Origin: a virus
DNA: 48,123 nucleotides
Strand: one strand, 5' to 3'
Virus record (IMG/VR): IMGVR_UViG_3300023244_000003
Coordinates: 1 to 48,123 of that record
Part shown: piece after piece, positions 5,523-47,959 of the stretch
Layout of the letters: the number at the start of each line of letters is the position of its first letter
Position numbering within the stretch: position 1 is the first letter of the stretch
Translations under genes and position numbers: made by a program
Notes under the pieces: model-generated
Databases searched by the model: none
What the model saw: the letters and a program-made list of their open reading frames with translations, nothing else
What the model was told of the DNA's origin: nothing

Positions 5523-5565
5523 ATTTGCATATGCAAATATAATGCAAGGGAAATTAAGATGCAAA
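5523..5565 (-). promoter_or_regulatory. Phage promoter with operator-like palindrome
   Basis: On the - strand TATATTTG spans 5541-5534. A 16-bp perfect palindrome, ATTTGCATATGCAAAT (5523-5538), overlaps its downstream half. The same palindrome core overlaps the promoters at 8020 and 9228, and all three have unusually long leaders (75-91 nt). It drives the 123-aa gene. Confidence 0.6.
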
Positions 5566-6509: not shown

Positions 6510-6541
6510 CAAATATATAACAAGGATATCAATAAAGCAAA
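6510..6541 (-). promoter_or_regulatory. Promoter TTTG-N20-TATATTTG
   Basis: On the - strand, TTTG (6541-6538), 20 nt, TATATTTG (6517-6510): a full match to the Bacteroidota vegetative consensus. It lacks the phage-specific CCTTTTTATTA upstream block seen in most other copies. Serves the 242-aa gene. Confidence 0.6.
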
Positions 6542-15206: not shown

Positions 15207-15992
15207 CTAGTAGTCTAATAAATACTGAAGAACTTGCTTATCCAATCTAGCAGCTTTCCTACCCAGTAGGTTATCGGCATTGTGATTCAGCTGGTAGTTC
15301 AATGCATTATAAACTAGCCAATCTGTAGATTCTAATTGATAATCCTTGATTTCCTTTAAAGCCCTTTCAACAGCCAAATCCTTTAACCCAATGGGGAAGT
15401 CAGTAGCATCAATTACCTCTTCAATGCGATTAGGTATATCCTTTACTGGAAAATCCTGTAACTCTATAAAGGGTTCAACCGCATCACTGTAGATACCCAT
15501 AAAGTCATGGAGCAATTCCATAGATTTTTCAACTGCAACTCCGTCCTCTACCTGTGGGGTATGGAGCATATCAATTACTTGCTCATCTACTAAGGCAGTC
15601 ATACCATTTGAGCAAACTAACCTAAGTATGCGAATTGCAAACTTATACCGTAGATACCCATTATAAGAGTTCAGAACTCTAATCGATGGAAACAAGATAT
15701 CCCCCTTATTGTCCATCTTTGTAGGGTGGTCCAGCATAGCGAAATCCATTTGAAACCTACTGTCTCTGAATGCTGTACCCGAGGCTTCGAATTTCATCTT
15801 ATGTTTTTCAAAATAGTTAACGAAGGAATCATAGATCCCACGATTCGGTACTAAGCCATAGTCCTTGCTACAAAAATGTAATATTTTACCTTTTCCAACA
15901 ATGGCATGACTGATTCCCGAGGCTGGTTTATAATCTACTCCTAAGATACTCTTAGTTTCAACTTTTTCAACCTTAAATAATAAATCTTCCAT
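15207..15992 (-). CDS. DUF932 phage/plasmid-like protein, 261 aa
   Basis: The words FPSIRVLNSYNGYLRYKFAI and ILRLVCSNGMTA match the DUF932 signature (conserved N[ST]..G..[RK]....LVC.NG). The family is common in phages and plasmids and has no settled function. It lacks the usual N-terminal DUF932 length and is 50-100 residues shorter than many members. First gene behind the promoter at 16040-16047. Confidence 0.75.
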   Translation of the reverse strand: MEDLLFKVEKVETKSILGVDYKPASGISHAIVGKGKILHFCSKDYGLVPNRGIYDSFVNYFEKHKMKFEASGTAFRDSRFQMDFAMLDHPTKMDNKGDILFPSIRVLNSYNGYLRYKFAIRILRLVCSNGMTALVDEQVIDMLHTPQVEDGVAVEKSMELLHDFMGIYSDAVEPFIELQDFPVKDIPNRIEEVIDATDFPIGLKDLAVERALKEIKDYQLESTDWLVYNALNYQLNHNADNLLGRKAARLDKQVLQYLLDY

Positions 15993-33000: not shown

Positions 33001-33468
33001 TTTCTTCCCAGGCTTATTATCTAGGTCATACCCAGAGAAAGCAGGTAACATCATATCTACCAAGCTCTTTAAATCATTGGGCCTTTCTTCATGCAATAGG
33101 TATTTCATTAACATAACATCAAAGAACCTACCCCTAGGTCTGTACCCATACTTAAGGAATATCCTGTACTCGAACAAGGCATTGAAAACGTACTTGGTAA
33201 TGGAAGGATTCTCTACTACAGCTCTACAGAATTCCCCGAATACATCCTGCCAGTTATCTTTAAAGGGGGATTCCTTATGGGCTAACGGAATAATCCAACC
33301 ACTACCAGGTCTAAAGCTTACCCCCATTTCAGTAGGGAAAAACCAGTCAGCGTGGACTGCAGTACCGTTGGTCTCAAAGTCTATACTTGCTACCCGTTCT
33401 TCCTGGCAGTACTGAATCAGTTGCCTTAGTTCTTTGTAGGTTTTTACTATCTTCCAGTTAGTCCTCAT
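30082..33468 (-). CDS. polA: Family A DNA polymerase with intein, 1128 aa precursor
   Basis: Replicative polymerase with 3'-5' exonuclease: exo motif SIDFETNG (D30, E32), VFNALFEYR and LKSLVDMMLP. Polymerase motif B KSAKVLNFTIFYGAGAKK, motif C STVHDSVEF. Motif A is split by an intein: VEVDL before Cys448 and SQAELRYAAEV after Asn845; joined they read VEVDLSQAELR, the family A signature. Mature polymerase would be 730 aa. No 5'-3' exonuclease domain (supplied by the separate exonuclease at 25700). The C-terminus repeats DKDKDKD. Start overlaps the deaminase stop (ATGA). Confidence 0.95.
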   Translation of the reverse strand: MRTNWKIVKTYKELRQLIQYCQEERVASIDFETNGTAVHADWFFPTEMGVSFRPGSGWIIPLAHKESPFKDNWQDVFGEFCRAVVENPSITKYVFNALFEYRIFLKYGYRPRGRFFDVMLMKYLLHEERPNDLKSLVDMMLPAFSGYDLDNKPGKKAKPEVIKEFWENVPLKELSQYCAGDCDFTLRIGIHMESQLIINGLYELFRNFYMPLVRVLANTVLKGVMVDRKYLKGQVISFQEKIDQVLIDIFSIPEIHDYNEEFIENKKEEYIKQLEYEVDNGDLSERQIDLREEKISRVEAGDPSIKAERKLFESINFASTLQMIGLLFESEEGFEFPILSRSDTGNPSTAEDVLLKLQARDESGFIEKLLEYRGLQKLYSTYIKGIYEQHLTPEDNVHPGYLLHGTITGRLSSRGPNFQNIPRSTTSAFIKQMFIAPKDHYFVEVDLCLIAGSMVKTPYGLIPIERIPVGKPIRVGHRDELVTHSYSTGFRETFDTYSNTGRKLGTTDNHPFKTPYGFIAVKDLDLGDTLIIDSSVIDGHVQVPSLEAWVVGYFYGDGFYSQNSNPNRSGNSYSLSFSTGLDRVELLPLLEDYFSGYYISEARPIPEAVKITHKGLHGAWSARNPKGGSHDMRIPQYLFEASLESKLHFYGGLIDSDGSVNADRIRYTSVCELFIDDLMVLANSCGIFGVKEDSIIANTGGTAFHYIVYARSSIEVLVGYSRLARKAKQITQMAEQKSFSQCRTEMVPEDVYDYLVDGTKQAGPYKPVGVTLRNATRRHRLTREAIRYNIIPHLSDPLLVGEWREILAHRYETFEEAIPTGIKEVFDLSVPSVSQFVANGFTVHNSQAELRYAAEVSKDKAMLDIFKDGKNMHVATAALMFDVDYGLCNSARKDEKHAQHEDMIKKHKSAKVLNFTIFYGAGAKKVAEFLTEKTGDYHSNEEAQGFIDKWFEAFPKASAWIKKERKKAVRDGYVTNLFGRKRRLPILANPANRLREMGKWNEALRQSVNAQIQSGSSDITQWINLKIYQAILEGKLPSYLRLVSTVHDSVEFYVHKDDMNKVLPIMLNIARILPGLEDGLGACLHRVPMKASAEYGLNWGTMYSYNPDKDKDKDFSNLYEEEYKRLYT
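30934..32127 (-). other. Intein with LAGLIDADG endonuclease in polymerase motif A, 398 aa
   Basis: Starts at Cys448 of the polymerase precursor (CLIAGSMVKTPYG, block A) and ends TVHN before Ser846 (block G, His-Asn then Ser+1). Block B TTDNHPFKTPYG is present, as are DOD-type endonuclease motifs GYFYGDGF and FYGGLIDSDGS, each with the catalytic Asp. All splicing residues (Cys1, block B Thr/His, His-Asn, +1 Ser) are present, so both splicing and homing look intact. The DNA uses more G/C codons than the polymerase exteins. Confidence 0.92.
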
Positions 33469-34568
33469 AATTGGCGTACTTTAACCCCGTTATTTTTTAA
33501 TAGTTCTAAGCCCTCGGTATTTCGGTAGGAGTTTATGTACCCCAGCTCTACAATACCCGCCTGGATTATGCCTTCAGCACATTTTTTACAGGGAACTGTA
33601 CTGCAATACATAGAAGCTCCCCCTATAGCTATCCCCTTTTTAGCAGCGAAAACGATAGCTCCCATCTCAGCATGTATAGCTCTAGTGCAAGGCTTAGTGG
33701 TATCGCAATGAGCTATGGAACAGTGAGGGGCCCCAGGAAGAGGGCCATTGTACTGAGAGACTATGATTCGTCTATCATAAACTATAATTGCTCCTTGTTT
33801 TGCTCGGCCACAAGTACCCCTGCTAGCTGTGTCCTCTACGATTTTTTTATAATAGGCATCTCGACTGGGCCTAGTTAGAACAGTTTCAGGAAAGCTTAAC
33901 CCGTACCCTAAATCCTTAATACCCATGGCCAGTACTAATAAGTCTCGGTCCTTAGCAGCAGCTTCTGCAGAGGTAAATTTTTTCTTCCTATACCGTTTAT
34001 TAGCGTACTTAAAGTCATACTTATATAAAGTTCCTCTCCCCTTAGTTTCATAAGATTGTACATTCCTATACCCCGTAGGGGTTTTAGCTGCCCAGCCTTC
34101 TGAATTCGCAGACTGTTGCGAAGCTGAAGCTAGGGTGCAGTTCGCTGGGCAATAACCTAAGGTAGAGTTCTTCCTTTCCAGGGAAAGGGTACTCCCTAGA
34201 TCTTCTTCTGTATACCCTAGCTGGTCTAGGAGTTGGTTAATAAACTCCCAAAATCCCCAGATGTTATCTCGCCAGGATTGGAATACAGTTATACCCTTTC
34301 CCCCGTAAGCAGAGAAAGAAGCGTTATCCCTATTGTAACACCGCCCCATCATCCTTTTATACATCTTACCAATAGGAGTAACAGATAAACCCCGACTACC
34401 CAAGTGGTATGAGGAGCACCCCTTGGGTTTAAGAGAAGAAGTTATGTGTAGTTGAGAAGCCCGGAAAAACTGGTTACAGAAAGGGCATATAGCAATTACA
34501 TAGTTCGTATCGGGACCCCCCTGATACCGGGCAGGCCCCACTATTACTGCTCTACTGGGCCTACTCAT
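33465..34568 (-). CDS. dCMP deaminase with an inserted HNH-AP2 endonuclease, 367 aa
   Basis: The C-terminal ~130 residues are a dCMP/deoxycytidylate deaminase: GTCGRAKQGAIIVYD, TRAIHAEMGAI (catalytic His/Glu) and STVPCKKCAEGI (zinc Cys). The N-terminal ~230 residues are an HNH homing endonuclease (ICPFCNQFF, MYKRMMGRCYNRDNA.F, LSLERKNSTLGYCPANC) plus an AP2-like region (GYRNVQSY...YDFKYANKRYRKKKF). The start MSRPSR is repeated as TRPSR right before the deaminase. Removing 690 nt would leave a normal 137-aa deaminase. An internal ATG at 33926 could also start a deaminase alone. Start taken at 34568, overlapping the TS-like stop by 8 nt. Confidence 0.9.
   Translation of the reverse strand: MSRPSRAVIVGPARYQGGPDTNYVIAICPFCNQFFRASQLHITSSLKPKGCSSYHLGSRGLSVTPIGKMYKRMMGRCYNRDNASFSAYGGKGITVFQSWRDNIWGFWEFINQLLDQLGYTEEDLGSTLSLERKNSTLGYCPANCTLASASQQSANSEGWAAKTPTGYRNVQSYETKGRGTLYKYDFKYANKRYRKKKFTSAEAAAKDRDLLVLAMGIKDLGYGLSFPETVLTRPSRDAYYKKIVEDTASRGTCGRAKQGAIIVYDRRIIVSQYNGPLPGAPHCSIAHCDTTKPCTRAIHAEMGAIVFAAKKGIAIGGASMYCSTVPCKKCAEGIIQAGIVELGYINSYRNTEGLELLKNNGVKVRQL
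33860..34565 (-). repeat. 16-bp flanks of the 690-nt HNH insert
   Basis: 34550-34565 and 33860-33875 match at 14 of 16 positions and lie exactly 690 nt (230 codons) apart, encoding RPSR at both edges. The repeat surrounds the endonuclease part of the deaminase ORF. This is what an in-frame insertion with duplicated target or exon sequence would leave. Confidence 0.8.
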
Positions 34569-35310
34569 CAGTGACAAGTTTAGATATTCCGGCTTCTAAC
34601 TTATCCCAGTCTTTCTTATACGTATGTAATGAAAAGATGTGGTGGGTTAGATACCCTACATTGATATTCATGTGATTCTTTTTAGATAATTGCTCCCATA
34701 CATATTCCATCATCAGCCAAGCCAGCATTACATCGTTACCGAAGTGCTGAACTAAATCTGCTGATCTCTGTATATAGGTCATATTTAGTTGCCCATTCCT
34801 TATCATAAAATAATACCCTAAGGAACACGGTATACGGGCTTGCCCACCAACTCGACTTAAATCTTGGGGCCAAAATATGGGTAACCAAGCTTGTCTTGTA
34901 TCTGGGTTCCTATCCAATTCAACTATAACCCTATCAAGGTTTTCTTCATAGTTTAACCTTTCACTGTAAGTATAATCAAAGGCCCCATCATCTGGGTTGA
35001 GAAATTGATCCCATACATCCTTCCTAATTCTCCAGGCATGGCCTGGGTTATCAGCATTGGGATCTACCCTTTCCTGGAACTCAGCTGCACACCATTTCCT
35101 AGCTACATCATCCTCAAATAGAAATAGATTTGCTGGATCGGGTAATGCAGTCAACGTGTAAATGTAATGCTGGATCTCCTTCGTAATGTAAAGATCATTA
35201 CCCTCTATAATCTTATTCTGATACGACTTAGGCTTTACGATCAAAGCCATTTCATGGAGATCTCGGAACGATTCAGAGAATAATTCGTAAGCATTCTTGT
35301 AAATTCTCAT
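34561..35310 (-). CDS. Thymidylate-synthase-fold enzyme, probable pyrimidine hydroxymethylase, 249 aa
   Basis: RIPCSLGYYFMIRNG holds the catalytic Cys, and NMTYIQRSADL the phosphate-binding Gln-Arg-Ser of the ThyA family at the normal spacing (Cys to Arg 20 residues). THHIFSLHTY matches the folate/nucleotide His-Tyr loop. 31 residues after the Cys, where ThyA has Asn177 (selects dUMP), this protein has Asp (GND), as in T4 dCMP hydroxymethylase. A dCMP or dUMP hydroxymethylase is therefore more likely than plain thymidylate synthase. First gene after promoter 35335. Confidence 0.8.
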   Translation of the reverse strand: MRIYKNAYELFSESFRDLHEMALIVKPKSYQNKIIEGNDLYITKEIQHYIYTLTALPDPANLFLFEDDVARKWCAAEFQERVDPNADNPGHAWRIRKDVWDQFLNPDDGAFDYTYSERLNYEENLDRVIVELDRNPDTRQAWLPIFWPQDLSRVGGQARIPCSLGYYFMIRNGQLNMTYIQRSADLVQHFGNDVMLAWLMMEYVWEQLSKKNHMNINVGYLTHHIFSLHTYKKDWDKLEAGISKLVTDE

Positions 35311-43310: not shown

Positions 43311-44675
43311 TTAGGATAAAATACAGGGAGGTAAGACATAAGTGTAAACAGTGGGGACCAGATCAGCATGTTTAATCTTAACAGTACCGTCTCCATTATC
43401 TATTACAAGGGCAGCAACGGAGGATACTGTCGTAACCCCGGTAGTTCCCAGAAGTTGAGTTAAACAGAACTGGAGGTATGTAGAACCTATAACTAAGGAA
43501 AGTATTTCTGTAAGCCCAGCAGAGGCCCCTGCAGAGATTGAAAAACTGCCCTTAATATAAGTGAAATCTCCCCTTACAGATGTCTGAAGATAATCGATGG
43601 TCCAATTGTTACTACCTGAAGTACCCAAAGGTACTAGGTTTACCCAAGCACCACTACTTTCTAAGGCACCTAATCTTTGACCGTGGCTAGCTATCTCGGT
43701 TTCGTTTGTAGTAACCCTACTAGCTAAAGATGTGATTTCAGAAAATACATTAGTGATCATAGAAAAGAACTCCCACTTACCGTTAGTCCTAACTAATTTG
43801 TATAACCCTCCGTAAGAAGAAAGGGACAAAACGTTATAGGGTGGGTGGGGTCTAAAGTTTCCGGCAGTTTCCCAGGTTAAGGTAGCAGCACAAGAGTCAA
43901 ACTTAAGGTATAATACATCCCCATCTACAACTACCCTACCTTCTGTAAATACAATGTTTACTATGGTATAATCCCCAGGATCCAAAGCGGCTACACGAAA
44001 TACGTTAGCATCCTCTGTTAGGTTTAAATCATAATAAGGGGCTCCTCCCACTCCAACGTTTGCAGTTAAAGCTGTTTTAGCAATATCTACTTCACTCCAG
44101 GAATTAAACCCTGTAAATTTATTAGGCCCAGCTAATAAGGCACAGATAGATAAATCTATATCGGCCTTACCTGCTAAGTTAGGGATAGGATAAGGAGTCC
44201 AAGTAAGATCTGAATAAGCAGTCCCCCCTGCAGCTATGGTTACATAACCTATTGGGGTTTGTACATCGGTCAACCCCGTGGGTGTAGTGGGTATAGTAGT
44301 AAGTACAGAATCTATTCCATAACTTACACTACCATGTGAAGCACTGTCCGCCCAGGTGTACTCAGCATATACAATCTGGTATACATCATCAGCAGTAGCG
44401 TTTGCTAAAGGGGTTAGAGTGGGAATAGTATCAGCTATGGCTACAGTTATTACTACCCCATGTCCCGTTACAAATACCCCAACATCAACGGGAGTATTAG
44501 TGTTGTCGATGTATGATAGGTAAGTAGTATGGCCAATCTCTACGCCTAAGCCTGAGACTGAAGACATAAGGTCAAAGCCATGATATCTACCTAAATGCAA
44601 GAAAGCTCGACGAGTAGTGTTCCTATCCATTGAGCCAAGTATATCTAAATATTCTGTGTGTTTCTTAGTTGCCAT
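43311..44675 (-). CDS. Fibre- or appendage-like structural protein, 454 aa
   Basis: Gly/Thr/Ser-rich with many short beta-like segments, a central NLAGKADIDLSI collar-like motif, and EITSLASRVTTNETEIASHGQRLGAL, a short coiled coil (about 320-345) typical of trimeric fibres, followed by a C-terminal beta domain. Probably a receptor-binding or appendage protein. It precedes the lysis genes in the same direction. Confidence 0.7.
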   Translation of the reverse strand: MATKKHTEYLDILGSMDRNTTRRAFLHLGRYHGFDLMSSVSGLGVEIGHTTYLSYIDNTNTPVDVGVFVTGHGVVITVAIADTIPTLTPLANATADDVYQIVYAEYTWADSASHGSVSYGIDSVLTTIPTTPTGLTDVQTPIGYVTIAAGGTAYSDLTWTPYPIPNLAGKADIDLSICALLAGPNKFTGFNSWSEVDIAKTALTANVGVGGAPYYDLNLTEDANVFRVAALDPGDYTIVNIVFTEGRVVVDGDVLYLKFDSCAATLTWETAGNFRPHPPYNVLSLSSYGGLYKLVRTNGKWEFFSMITNVFSEITSLASRVTTNETEIASHGQRLGALESSGAWVNLVPLGTSGSNNWTIDYLQTSVRGDFTYIKGSFSISAGASAGLTEILSLVIGSTYLQFCLTQLLGTTGVTTVSSVAALVIDNGDGTVKIKHADLVPTVYTYVLPPCILS

Positions 44676-44694: not shown

Positions 44695-45033
44695 TTAAAC
44701 GTTCCTTTCGAAGTGAGGTGAATCATAGAAGCTTTGAAAGTTTCCTCCCCACCTATTCTTAGGATCTAAGCTTTCCCAGAACACCCCCAATTCTTCGAGC
44801 TGAGGGTGGTCATAGGATAGTTTACCTTCAATGAAAAAATTGAAGTCGATGGCTAGTCTCCTTAAGTGGTTACTATTCCTTGTGTGGGATTTACCTGTAT
44901 TAAAGTAAATCTCCTGCTGTTCTTTAGTTCGGTAAGCTTCCCCAAAGGTTAGCTCAATCCCTATTGAAGTAGCATAAACCATAAGCAAGGAAACATGCTT
45001 AGTGAACTCTTGTTGCTCGTAACTTAAACTCAA
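44695..45033 (-). CDS. M15 peptidase endolysin, 112 aa
   Basis: GEAYRTKEQQEIYFNTGKSHTRNSNHLRRLAIDFNFF is the M15 signature split here into known ligands: His and Asp of H..x6..D, and the later His in SPHFE. It cuts peptidoglycan peptides (L-Ala-D-Glu type). I place the start at TTG 45033, 17 nt after the upstream stop, because family proteins begin near SLSYEQQEF and the ATG at 45159 would overlap the previous gene by 110 bp. No signal peptide, so a holin is needed. Confidence 0.8.
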   Translation of the reverse strand: MSLSYEQQEFTKHVSLLMVYATSIGIELTFGEAYRTKEQQEIYFNTGKSHTRNSNHLRRLAIDFNFFIEGKLSYDHPQLEELGVFWESLDPKNRWGGNFQSFYDSPHFERNV

Positions 45034-45049
45034 AGGTTTTCCCTTTCGT

Positions 45050-45271
45050 TTACTCGGATTTCGAACCAAGTATGACAAATAACTTGTCAACCATATCGTA
45101 AAGCATTGGCCAGTATTTTTCTGGTATTTGTTCTTTTGCTTTTTGTAATCCAATATCATCCCCGGCTTTAATAATCCAGCCGTCTGCTAGTTCCATAACT
45201 CCCGTATTATCCCACATTAGATCAGCAAATTTCTGTTGATTTGGGGTCATTAATCCTTGACGTTTTTCCAT
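45050..45271 (-). CDS. Hypothetical protein in the lysis cassette, 73 aa
   Basis: MEKRQGLMTPNQQKFADLMW, then DGWIIKAGDDIGLQKAKEQI and a helical tail. No membrane segment. A second start (45250) is possible. Conserved in style with phage proteins near endolysins, but no function known. Confidence 0.65.
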   Translation of the reverse strand: MEKRQGLMTPNQQKFADLMWDNTGVMELADGWIIKAGDDIGLQKAKEQIPEKYWPMLYDMVDKLFVILGSKSE

Positions 45272-45450
45272 GATTTTAATTTTAATGGTTTATAAATAGT
45301 GTTACTTTTTAAATGTTTCTTTAACTCAAAGAAACCTATAATGGATCGTTTAGTAGCCCTCTTTCCTTGGCTTTCATTAAGGTATTGGTTATTTATAGTT
45401 ACTTTCAAATACCTCTTTAGTTTCTTCAACAACTGTTTTATCGCTTTCAT
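45250..45450 (-). CDS. Basic 66-aa ORF of doubtful status
   Basis: Basic protein (KKLKRYLK, GKRATKRS) overlapping its neighbours by 62 and 22 bp. It includes a GTTTCTTT/AAAGAAAC hairpin (45315-45335) that would be a good stem-loop in mRNA. It could be a real small gene or merely an open frame across a regulatory gap. The gap 45272-45388 has nothing else. Confidence 0.3.
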   Translation of the reverse strand: MKAIKQLLKKLKRYLKVTINNQYLNESQGKRATKRSIIGFFELKKHLKSNTIYKPLKLKSWKNVKD

Positions 45451-45661
45451 CTTTAATTTGTTGATATGACACAGAAGTTGCAGCCACTACCCCAACTGCT
45501 ATAGAAACCCATAAGGGTAGTCCTAGTGAAGGTATTGACAATACTATCAAAGCAGCCGTTCCTGCACCACTAATTATATATTGTTTAATTCTAGCACCTT
45601 TAGGAGTTTTAGATTTCCACCTCTCTAATAGCATTGCAAAAAATCTACCTGCATCCTTCAT
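45389..45661 (-). CDS. Holin candidate, 90 aa
   Basis: Two adjacent hydrophobic segments, about residues 29-47 (GTAALIVLSIPSLGLPLWV) and 48-60 (SIAVGVVAATSV), between a basic N-terminal part and a charged C-terminus. Start at MKDAGRFF (45661) is preceded by GGAGG 5 nt upstream, an unusually good Shine-Dalgarno here. With the soluble endolysin downstream, a holin is likely. Confidence 0.65.
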   Translation of the reverse strand: MKDAGRFFAMLLERWKSKTPKGARIKQYIISGAGTAALIVLSIPSLGLPLWVSIAVGVVAATSVSYQQIKDESDKTVVEETKEVFESNYK

Positions 45662-45663
45662 AC

Positions 45664-46203
45664 TTACCTCCATTTTACTGTTGTTTTCCAATCGTGAGTG
45701 ATTGTATATCTTCCCCCAATATAGAGGTTACCTAAAGTTTTTACCCCAGAAGGTTTATCTACTTTTATAGAATGGTGTTTATCATTCATTGTATTAAAGT
45801 AAAACCCATTTTCGTAGCCTATCCTACCTTGGTAAGTATTACCTATTACAATGGTATCGAGTATACCTTTTTGCAAGGGGTTCTCTTGTGGAGAAACACC
45901 CTCTATATAATAGTAATAACCTAGTAATCCGATATCCCCAGATCGCATATAAACTATCCTGTTGCTGTTTTCATGGTTACTATTCCAAGCTATTCCAGTA
46001 ACCTTACTCCAACCGTTTAATACTGGCTCCACCCATACCCAGCTACTGTCTGTAGTAAAACTGTATTTTATTTCATCACTGTTTAAAAGAGTAGGAACGT
46101 GTGTTGAATAGTTGTCCCCTGCCTTTACTACATAGTGGTGAGTATTACAGGACAAGGATAAGATAACTATTAATAAGGGAATTGATTTAATTATTCGTTT
46201 CAT
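45664..46203 (-). CDS. Putative lipoprotein, 179 aa
   Basis: Lipobox IVILSLSC at residues 12-19 after a basic N-terminus marks a signal peptide II cleavage, making a lipoprotein with a beta-rich body (VVKAGDNYSTHVP onward). Position before the holin suggests an outer-membrane spanin or an outer-membrane surface-modifying protein. Overlaps its neighbours. Confidence 0.7.
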   Translation of the reverse strand: MKRIIKSIPLLIVILSLSCNTHHYVVKAGDNYSTHVPTLLNSDEIKYSFTTDSSWVWVEPVLNGWSKVTGIAWNSNHENSNRIVYMRSGDIGLLGYYYYIEGVSPQENPLQKGILDTIVIGNTYQGRIGYENGFYFNTMNDKHHSIKVDKPSGVKTLGNLYIGGRYTITHDWKTTVKWR

Positions 46204-46466
46204 TTATGGTGCATTAAATCTATCTCTAGAGTTTTCTCGATGATGGTTGTATTGTGATTGTTGTAAATTTTAATTTGGTCAATATCATCTCTAACGGTAA
46301 TTGCGTTAGCTTCAGTCGTTCTCCAGAAAGTAAACATACCTAGTATGAATGCTGCAAGTAAAACTGTAATGACACCCATAAATATGTGGTTATCGTTTTT
46401 CTTTACTAATAAGGCTACACTATCATTGAGTGTACTAACAGCTTTAAAAATTGCTTCTTCATCCAT
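46200..46466 (-). CDS. Single-pass membrane protein, 88 aa
   Basis: Start chosen at MDEEAIFKAVSTL (46466), after the PAS-protein stop. One membrane segment (about 28-48: IFMGVITVLLAAFILGMFTF) followed by a helical periplasmic region. It could be the inner-membrane partner of the lipoprotein (i-spanin-like). Confidence 0.65.
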   Translation of the reverse strand: MDEEAIFKAVSTLNDSVALLVKKNDNHIFMGVITVLLAAFILGMFTFWRTTEANAITVRDDIDQIKIYNNHNTTIIEKTLEIDLMHHK

Positions 46467-46467
46467 G

Positions 46468-46935
46468 TTATACGAGATTGTGTTTTTGAAACATTGCAAC
46501 TATTTCTGCTGCTTCTCCATTTAAGTTAATGGCTCTTTCAAATCTTAACATCCTTCCGTTCACTTCTTTGGCAACATCGATTATGTAGTATAATTTTTTA
46601 TTCTTCTCATGGTAGAATACCCACCTGTAAGGTTTACCAACACATTCTAATATCTTATCGTTTGTGCAAAAGAAACAAGGAGCATCTAAGCCATGAAAGG
46701 CTTCGTAACAAATTTGCCCAACAACATCCCCAAACAGTTTTTTAGTTTCTTCATTAATAAAGAGGATTTCGTTAGTTTCTATGTCTGTTACATAAACGCA
46801 ATCATCACTACTTTCGACGAGGGTTGTACTATAAAGACTAGTTTGTTTCAGATACTTATTCTCCCTTATTGTGTCAGCAATTAGTTGTCCTAGAATCCAG
46901 GAATCTTCCTGTATCTTATCGGTTAGTTTACACAT
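46468..46935 (-). CDS. Phage-encoded PAS-domain protein, 155 aa
   Basis: Residues 44-140 form a PAS core: DDCVYVTDIETNEILFINEETKKLFG (strands and the N-terminal PAS motif), GQICYEAFHGLDAPCFFCTN (the 'CYE...PC.FC' sensor-kinase motif, Cys76, 87, 90), KLYYIIDVAKEVNGRMLRFERAINLN. N-terminal ~40 residues form a helical linker. No kinase or output domain is present. Normal members sit in bacterial sensor kinases, so the phage protein could bind a host partner or act with the adjacent receiver. Overlaps the membrane protein gene slightly. Confidence 0.85.
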   Translation of the reverse strand: MCKLTDKIQEDSWILGQLIADTIRENKYLKQTSLYSTTLVESSDDCVYVTDIETNEILFINEETKKLFGDVVGQICYEAFHGLDAPCFFCTNDKILECVGKPYRWVFYHEKNKKLYYIIDVAKEVNGRMLRFERAINLNGEAAEIVAMFQKHNLV

Positions 46936-46939
46936 AGAC

Positions 46940-47272
46940 TTATATATAATTAATTATACTATCTCGTAGTTTATTGGTGAGTATTGGTTTAGAGATCACT
47001 AGAGCCCCCTGTATTTCATCTACTTTGGGGTCAGCAACGTAAGCAGTTACCACTACCACTGGGACTTTATTACCTACCCCCCTTAAAAATTCTAATACTT
47101 CGTACCCTGTTTTAACGGGCATCATTAGGTCTAATATAAAAACGTCGTAGTCATCTGAGTAGGCCATTATAAAATCTTCCCCATTAAGGCAGAACTTTAC
47201 ATCATCCTTTTTAAAACCTATTTTGTAAAGCTCGACTGTAAAGCAATCGTCTTCCGCTATTAATATCTTCAT
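46940..47272 (-). CDS. Stand-alone response-regulator receiver (CheY-like), 110 aa
   Basis: Full receiver domain: acidic pocket EDD (7-9), phospho-acceptor LDLMMP (Asp48), VVTAY (Thr75) and SKP (Lys94). All key residues are intact, so it can likely be phosphorylated. It has no DNA-binding output domain. Adjacent PAS protein and GH16 gene in the same operon. It could intercept host phosphorelays or pair with the PAS protein. Confidence 0.9.
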   Translation of the reverse strand: MKILIAEDDCFTVELYKIGFKKDDVKFCLNGEDFIMAYSDDYDVFILDLMMPVKTGYEVLEFLRGVGNKVPVVVVTAYVADPKVDEIQGALVISKPILTNKLRDSIINYI

Positions 47273-47959
47273 CTATTCTCTAATTAGTAATCTTTGTAAT
47301 TCAAATACTCCAACCTCACCTTCCTTAATAAAACCCCCTCTAATATCTCCCATCCCATTTATCAGTACCCACATAGGCTCTTGGGGGATATGCTTAGTCA
47401 ACCTATAGATAGCAATATCATCTATATACCACTTAAGTGCTTTAGGGGTCCACTCTAGCTTATACTTATGGAATCCTTTTGATAAATCTTGGCCTCTTAA
47501 ACTTCTACCCTTTTGTTTATGATGTTCAACGTCCCCATAATGCAGAGTAGTTGAAAAGACTTTTGAATCTTTTCCCATAAATTCGAATATATCTACTTCA
47601 GGTAACCAATCTTTACTGAACATCCAAAAGGCAGACCAGTACTTCTTACCGTCTTTAGGTACTTTACAGGTTAATTCAAATGAACCAAAGGTTTGGGCAT
47701 AATTTCCCTTTGTGCATAAATACCCAGTTTTGAAAGGATATTGTTCGCTGTCGTTTGTTGTAGAAATTAAACTCCTGTTCTTTATGCAAGATAACATAGG
47801 CAAAACTCCGCTCCCGTATTCGTTCCGAGTTGCATAATATTTATTCCAAATACTCCAATCTATTGTTCTAAAATCCATATCAATTATAAAATCCCCCTCC
47901 GATTTTTTCGGAGTTGATTTAGTAAAAAACCACCGTATTTTATAAAATAGATTTAGCAT
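47273..47959 (-). CDS. GH16-family glycan hydrolase, 228 aa
   Basis: GSFELTCKVPKDGKKYWSAFWMF then LPEVDIFEFMG with catalytic E-x-D-x-x-E (Glu121, Asp123, Glu126), and LEWTPKALKWYIDD, the usual GH16 order (laminarinase, agarase, carrageenase clan). No signal peptide; the N-terminus (FYKIRWFFTKS) is short. It may be released at lysis or carried on the virion to degrade host or environmental polysaccharide. Substrate unknown. Confidence 0.9.
   Translation of the reverse strand: MLNLFYKIRWFFTKSTPKKSEGDFIIDMDFRTIDWSIWNKYYATRNEYGSGVLPMLSCIKNRSLISTTNDSEQYPFKTGYLCTKGNYAQTFGSFELTCKVPKDGKKYWSAFWMFSKDWLPEVDIFEFMGKDSKVFSTTLHYGDVEHHKQKGRSLRGQDLSKGFHKYKLEWTPKALKWYIDDIAIYRLTKHIPQEPMWVLINGMGDIRGGFIKEGEVGVFELQRLLIRE

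Follow-up and report, generated by a model that had tools for sequence, protein, structure and literature searches.

A receiver gene and a PAS gene in a late operon

The window, meaning the whole stretch of DNA analysed here, is a linear IMG/VR fragment of 48,123 bases, and the locus of interest lies about 850 bases from the record end. In order along the minus strand, the region encodes a GH16 glycoside hydrolase of 228 aa (47273..47959; PF00722, E=1e-22), a stand-alone CheY-like receiver of 110 aa (46940..47272), a stand-alone PAS protein of 155 aa carrying a cysteine motif (46468..46935), an 88-aa protein with one transmembrane (TM) helix, a putative lipoprotein of 179 aa (45664..46203), a holin-like small membrane protein of about 94 aa (45389..45673), two small ORFs, and an M15 peptidase endolysin (44695..45159; PF13539, E=3.3e-9; phrog_465 endolysin, E=2.5e-18). 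GH16 is the first identifiable gene of the operon, and the first base of the receiver gene directly follows its stop. The 88-aa protein (46200..46466) starts 1 nt after the PAS stop, and its gene is overlapped by 4 nt by that of the lipoprotein, which was recognized from its sequence by a signal ending LSLSC. Gaps at the first five junctions, from GH16 through the holin-like gene, range from -10 to +4 nt; the minus strand from 47959 to 44695 has no terminator-like site. GH16 through the M15 endolysin is one compact late operon, and the location that the preliminary description gave for the two genes, between the GH16 gene and the lysis cassette, is upheld.

Hydropathy analysis placed the TM helix of the 88-aa protein at about residues 28-46, followed by a charged/coiled C-terminal segment. 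Considered as a possible holin or spanin, the protein offers this single-TM topology; it had no match in a Pfam search and none by tblastn in phages. The holin-like protein, also recognized by hydropathy, matched no holin family in Pfam or PHROG. The start codon of the endolysin is uncertain, and its ORF overlaps an upstream 73-aa ORF. A tail-fibre-like gene with a weak phrog tail match lies at 43311-44675. Most genes of the operon have A/T-rich leaders with no clear Shine-Dalgarno sequence; these leaders, the presence of GH16, and the ties of phages with similar genes to Bacteroidota suggest a Bacteroidota host. A Bacteroidota-type promoter-like pattern, TTTG-N19..21-TANNTTTG, occurred twice in the window (5534-5565 and 6510-6541, minus strand), which is not above chance (expected 0.85). 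Elsewhere in the window, one ORF (33465-34577) combines an HNH endonuclease part (about residues 25-211) with a dCMP deaminase part (residues 236-370), and a DUF932 protein is encoded at 15207-15992.

The receiver matched PF00072 over residues 3-106 with E=5.8e-11 and 43 bits, above the Pfam cut-off of 30.2 bits, and many solved receiver structures matched it as well (best E=3.9e-10). Direct reading gave E7-D8-D9, D48, T76-A77, and K95, so that the profile score and the residues D8, D9, D48, T76, and K95 together place it among the response regulator receivers and bear out the earlier claim of an intact CheY-like domain with Asp48 as phospho-acceptor. By its residues, the receiver is apparently phosphorylation-ready. 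When aligned to a hand-written generic receiver consensus, the N-terminal two thirds agreed well and the alpha4/beta5 part was short; T76 and K95 are 19 residues apart, compared with an equivalent Thr-Lys spacing of 22 residues in CheY. An AF2 model of the receiver alone had a pLDDT of 43 and was set aside. The receiver also matched phrog_731 (E=1.1e-11), and other phage receivers therefore exist; a tblastn search of 50,697 phage records at E 1e-3 returned no matches.

The Pfam PAS match of the neighboring protein was weak (E=0.003, below the cut-off), and its assignment as a PAS domain comes from tblastn matches, with E down to 2e-9, in the PAS parts of GGDEF/EAL proteins and from structure comparison. 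Three sequences went into the AF2 model, which had a mean pLDDT of 61, with about 70-87 (moderate confidence) in the core, and predicted an N-terminal helix at about residues 1-41 (low confidence) followed by a PAS core at about residues 43-142. Foldseek matched this model to the PAS domains of PpsR, LOV-kinase, FixL, and DosP at E 3e-6 to 1e-3. As had been described, kinase and output parts are missing from both the receiver and the PAS chain.

No HATPase_c domain was found across the whole 48 kb record, which is possibly a fragment, by a search that matched in 14 of 14 control genomes. The record thus holds no cognate histidine kinase and no complete two-component system, and any kinase donor would be host-side, as far as the record shows. 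The codon usage of the receiver and PAS genes resembles that of the window's replication genes and of the rest of the phage. Given the intact frames, the profile matches, and this phage-like codon usage, chance was ruled out as a source of the two genes.

The cysteine motif and viral relatives of the PAS protein

The PAS protein carries the motif CYEAFHGLDAPCFFC (C76-x10-C87-x2-C90; 46666..46710, minus strand), which has a single exact match in the window and none in 100 shuffles. C76, C87, and C90 were invariant in alignments with four PAS-GGDEF/EAL proteins and with two viral proteins, and the three cysteines of the form CYEx7PCxxC are common to cellular PAS-GGDEF proteins. The motif differs from those of two known sensor types. 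LOV photoreceptors have GXNCRFLQ with a photoactive Cys, and the window protein reads GQICYEAF, with a Cys at a similar place and no N-C-R-F-L-Q. NreB-type Fe-S PAS sensors use four Cys ligands arranged as two CxxC pairs, and the window protein has three conserved cysteines as C-x10-C-x2-C. Four PAS matches in the phage collection (MT835688, MT837964, MT838049, and MT836567) were PAS-GGDEF/EAL proteins on apparently bacterial contigs labelled as phage, and were rejected. In the phage collection, fecal scaffolds named 'UNVERIFIED: Bacteriophage sp.' (L002, L003, L008, and L009) look bacterial and carry PAS-GGDEF/EAL proteins.

A motif scan of IMG/VR with TGYTAYGAR-N21-CCNTGYNNNTTYTGY, a pattern with F before the last Cys, returned seven places, five of which were out-of-frame chance matches. 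The other two were real proteins, in records referred to here as L017 (IMGVR_UViG_3300013137_002971) and L016 (IMGVR_UViG_3300031227_000051). L017 encodes a stand-alone PAS protein of 169 aa that is 35% identical to the window PAS over 113 aa (E=7e-26 in a single comparison). This record is crAss-like by its PHROG terminase, portal, and capsid, and its portal is 38% identical to that of Steigviridae phage cr111_1. The PAS gene is overlapped by the next gene, whose 115-aa product has a single TM helix and a C-terminal part rich in charge (L017:12874-13720), so that the order PAS then single-TM gene is common to the window and L017. In contrast to the window, L017 has no GH16 and no receiver on record, and its PAS gene follows head-completion genes and precedes tail-like genes; no lysis genes were found beside it in the available contig sequence. 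The window TM protein was not demonstrably homologous to the L017 TM protein (BLASTP E=0.23; 5-7 of 200 shuffles reached the score, z about 2.3) or to crAss lysis regulatory proteins. The best phage-collection match of the L017 TM protein, a TolQ/ExbB-type protein, lies on a contig that looks bacterial and was discarded. In L016, a 56-kb viral contig with no receiver on record, the Cys-PAS is fused to HisKA_2 and HATPase parts in a histidine kinase of 344 aa (L016:6670-7704).

Recurrence of the PAS-receiver pair in other phages, a check that the preliminary description had called for, was not observed. PF00072 was absent from L016, from L017 (which has the PAS), from seven phages distantly related to the window phage through its helicase, and from six Cellulophaga phages; because all but a few of the records searched are incomplete, a missing match does not prove that the gene is missing. 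The PAS, receiver, DnaB, and polymerase, each used as a single query sequence against viral and genome contigs, returned no relatives. Among the phages examined, the receiver and PAS genes do not form a conserved unit. Since L017 and the seven relatives have no receiver, what recurs is a PAS gene with a small TM gene directly after it, and the receiver is an addition to this unit. PAS plus small membrane protein, with two examples, may be a conserved unit.

A Foldseek search of BFVD with the PAS model returned viral PAS kinases and two uncharacterised Cellulophaga phage proteins (prob 0.98-0.99), which were assigned by length and phage to phi19:1 gp108 (240 aa) and phi18:3 gp090 (172 aa). The two are related to each other via PHROGs 31932 and 10199, and their family was found in 24 and in 11 Cellulophaga phage records, with some records in common. 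Genes of these PAS-like proteins (among them L025:39102-39620 and L027:5703-6425) lie in tail-to-endolysin cassettes of Pachyviridae, Assiduviridae, and phiSM. gp090 is two genes ahead of the endolysin in phi18:3; in phi19:1, gp108 comes after a holin-like gene, itself a weak phrog holin match, and is a few genes ahead of the lysozyme; and the phiSM homologue is directly ahead of the endolysin. The same cassette recurs in phages phi10:1 and Nekkels_1, and the Duneviridae phage Ingeline_1 has a PAS-like gene at the matching position, where no endolysin is annotated as such. In several Cellulophaga phages, pectate lyase or hydrolase genes precede the PAS-like gene, as GH16 does in the window. 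A Pfam search of these proteins gave no PAS matches, and hhalign against the Cys-PAS detected no homology (prob 0.1%). Resting on position and on a fold model of low-to-moderate confidence, the Cellulophaga parallel is a lead and not an established family relationship.

Possible roles in lysis and host signalling

The timing of lysis by Gram-negative phages has been described via holins, antiholins, and spanins, and a cytoplasmic sensor domain in a lysis cassette would, if true, be a new input to it. Our preferred reading, held tentatively and at less than even confidence, is that the PAS sensor works with the membrane/lysis proteins of the operon and that the receiver was added in this lineage and is charged by kinases of the host. 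The PAS protein would be a cytoplasmic sensor or scaffold made late within the lysis operon, and would partner physically with the next-encoded single-TM protein, the two together making a split version of a membrane-anchored PAS protein. A cue (redox, metal, or small ligand) could be read by the PAS pocket or the three-cysteine site, and its reading would alter the membrane/lysis proteins and thereby lysis timing. A host histidine kinase or acetyl phosphate might phosphorylate the receiver, which would then pass the host's state on to the PAS/TM unit or drain phosphate from host two-component circuits. In favor of this reading are the compact operon, the order of PAS and TM genes shared with L017, the lack of a HATPase in the window, and, by fold, the membrane-anchored Cellulophaga phage proteins in their cassettes. 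Against it, sequence-related stand-alone PAS proteins were found in just two phages, the window phage and L017; the TM proteins of these two are not demonstrably homologous; the Cellulophaga proteins show no profile-level homology to the Cys-PAS; L017 has no lysis genes beside its PAS in the available sequence; and no other phage record tested had a receiver. A broader form, in which phages of Bacteroidota from several unrelated families couple burst timing to host redox/metabolic state through PAS sensors in the lysis cassette, with the window phage adding a receiver that feeds host two-component signalling into the decision, strikes us as improbable.

The main alternative, held only slightly less likely than the preferred reading, is that the two proteins intercept host signalling: the receiver would bind host histidine kinases and drain their phosphate, the PAS protein would possibly act as a heterodimerisation decoy that blocks PAS input, and envelope-stress or defence responses would be blunted late in infection. 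Stand-alone receivers without output parts are typically phosphate shuttles or sinks, and the window receiver has all the phosphorylation residues on a record with no phage histidine kinase. A precedent is PIT4 of phage LSL4, an early protein not described as a receiver, which binds the histidine kinases FleS, PilS, and PA2882 (PMC10714779). However, the homologous PAS of L017 is without a receiver, and an operon expressed late with lysis genes would be late for host takeover. The place of the PAS-like (by fold) Cellulophaga phage proteins in lysis cassettes leans towards lysis rather than interception for the PAS protein, and the receiver could still intercept. The receiver would also provide a path, open to direct test, through which kinases of the host inform the phage or the phage drains them. 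In 2023 the authors of the PIT4 study stated that there was no earlier report of a phage protein directly interacting with a two-component protein (PMC10714779), so a phage-made receiver is of clear interest.

We consider it doubtful that the PAS and receiver genes are independent captured cargo, split from a host REC-PAS kinase or cyclase gene and retained as morons whose role in the phage goes little or not at all beyond being carried neutrally. The order REC then PAS is known from cellular REC-PAS proteins, the Cys-PAS type occurs in cellular GGDEF/EAL proteins, and the receiver was absent elsewhere among the phage records tested. However, useless DNA is usually purged from phage genomes, and here both frames are intact with tight junctions and phage-like codon usage, while a related stand-alone PAS has been retained in a different phage order (L017). 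Least convincing is a role in late transcription or virion assembly, with the proteins binding RNA polymerase or tail/hydrolase factors instead of lysis proteins, which would suit the nearby GH16 and tail-fibre-like genes and the place of the L017 PAS between head-completion and tail-like genes, but not the absence of a DNA-binding part or the membrane protein gene directly next to it.

Comparison with known systems

Phage PAS kinases and phage receivers are already known to exist. In agreement with the preliminary description, which knew of no phage system of this composition, we found no kinase-less receiver plus PAS within a lysis operon described in the open-access literature. The window receiver resembles single-domain response regulators of the CheY, Spo0F, and DivK type in consisting of the receiver alone, with the DD/D/T/K residues and no output domain; it differs from them in having no cognate kinase on record, in its shortened alpha4/beta5 part and length of 110 aa, and in being phage-encoded. 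Cellular Cys-motif PAS domains of GGDEF/EAL proteins (e.g., those on the fecal scaffolds above) share G-x-x-CYE...PCxxC and the PAS pattern with the window protein at 25-30% identity, whereas the window PAS is without a catalytic part, stands alone, and is encoded in a phage lysis operon. A phage-carried PAS sensing domain is likewise found in viral PAS histidine kinases (L016, and the multi-sensor kinase of Agrobacterium phage Atu_ph07 in BFVD), which unlike the window PAS have kinase domains. The Cellulophaga proteins differ from the window PAS in having their own N-terminal hydrophobic/coiled segment, no Cys motif, and no detectable sequence homology. Yet they are PAS-like by Foldseek, come after membrane-protein and polysaccharidase/tail genes, and lie in a cassette leading to the endolysin, and the isolated Cellulophaga phages provide a culturable test bed for the idea of a PAS sensor in the lysis cassette.
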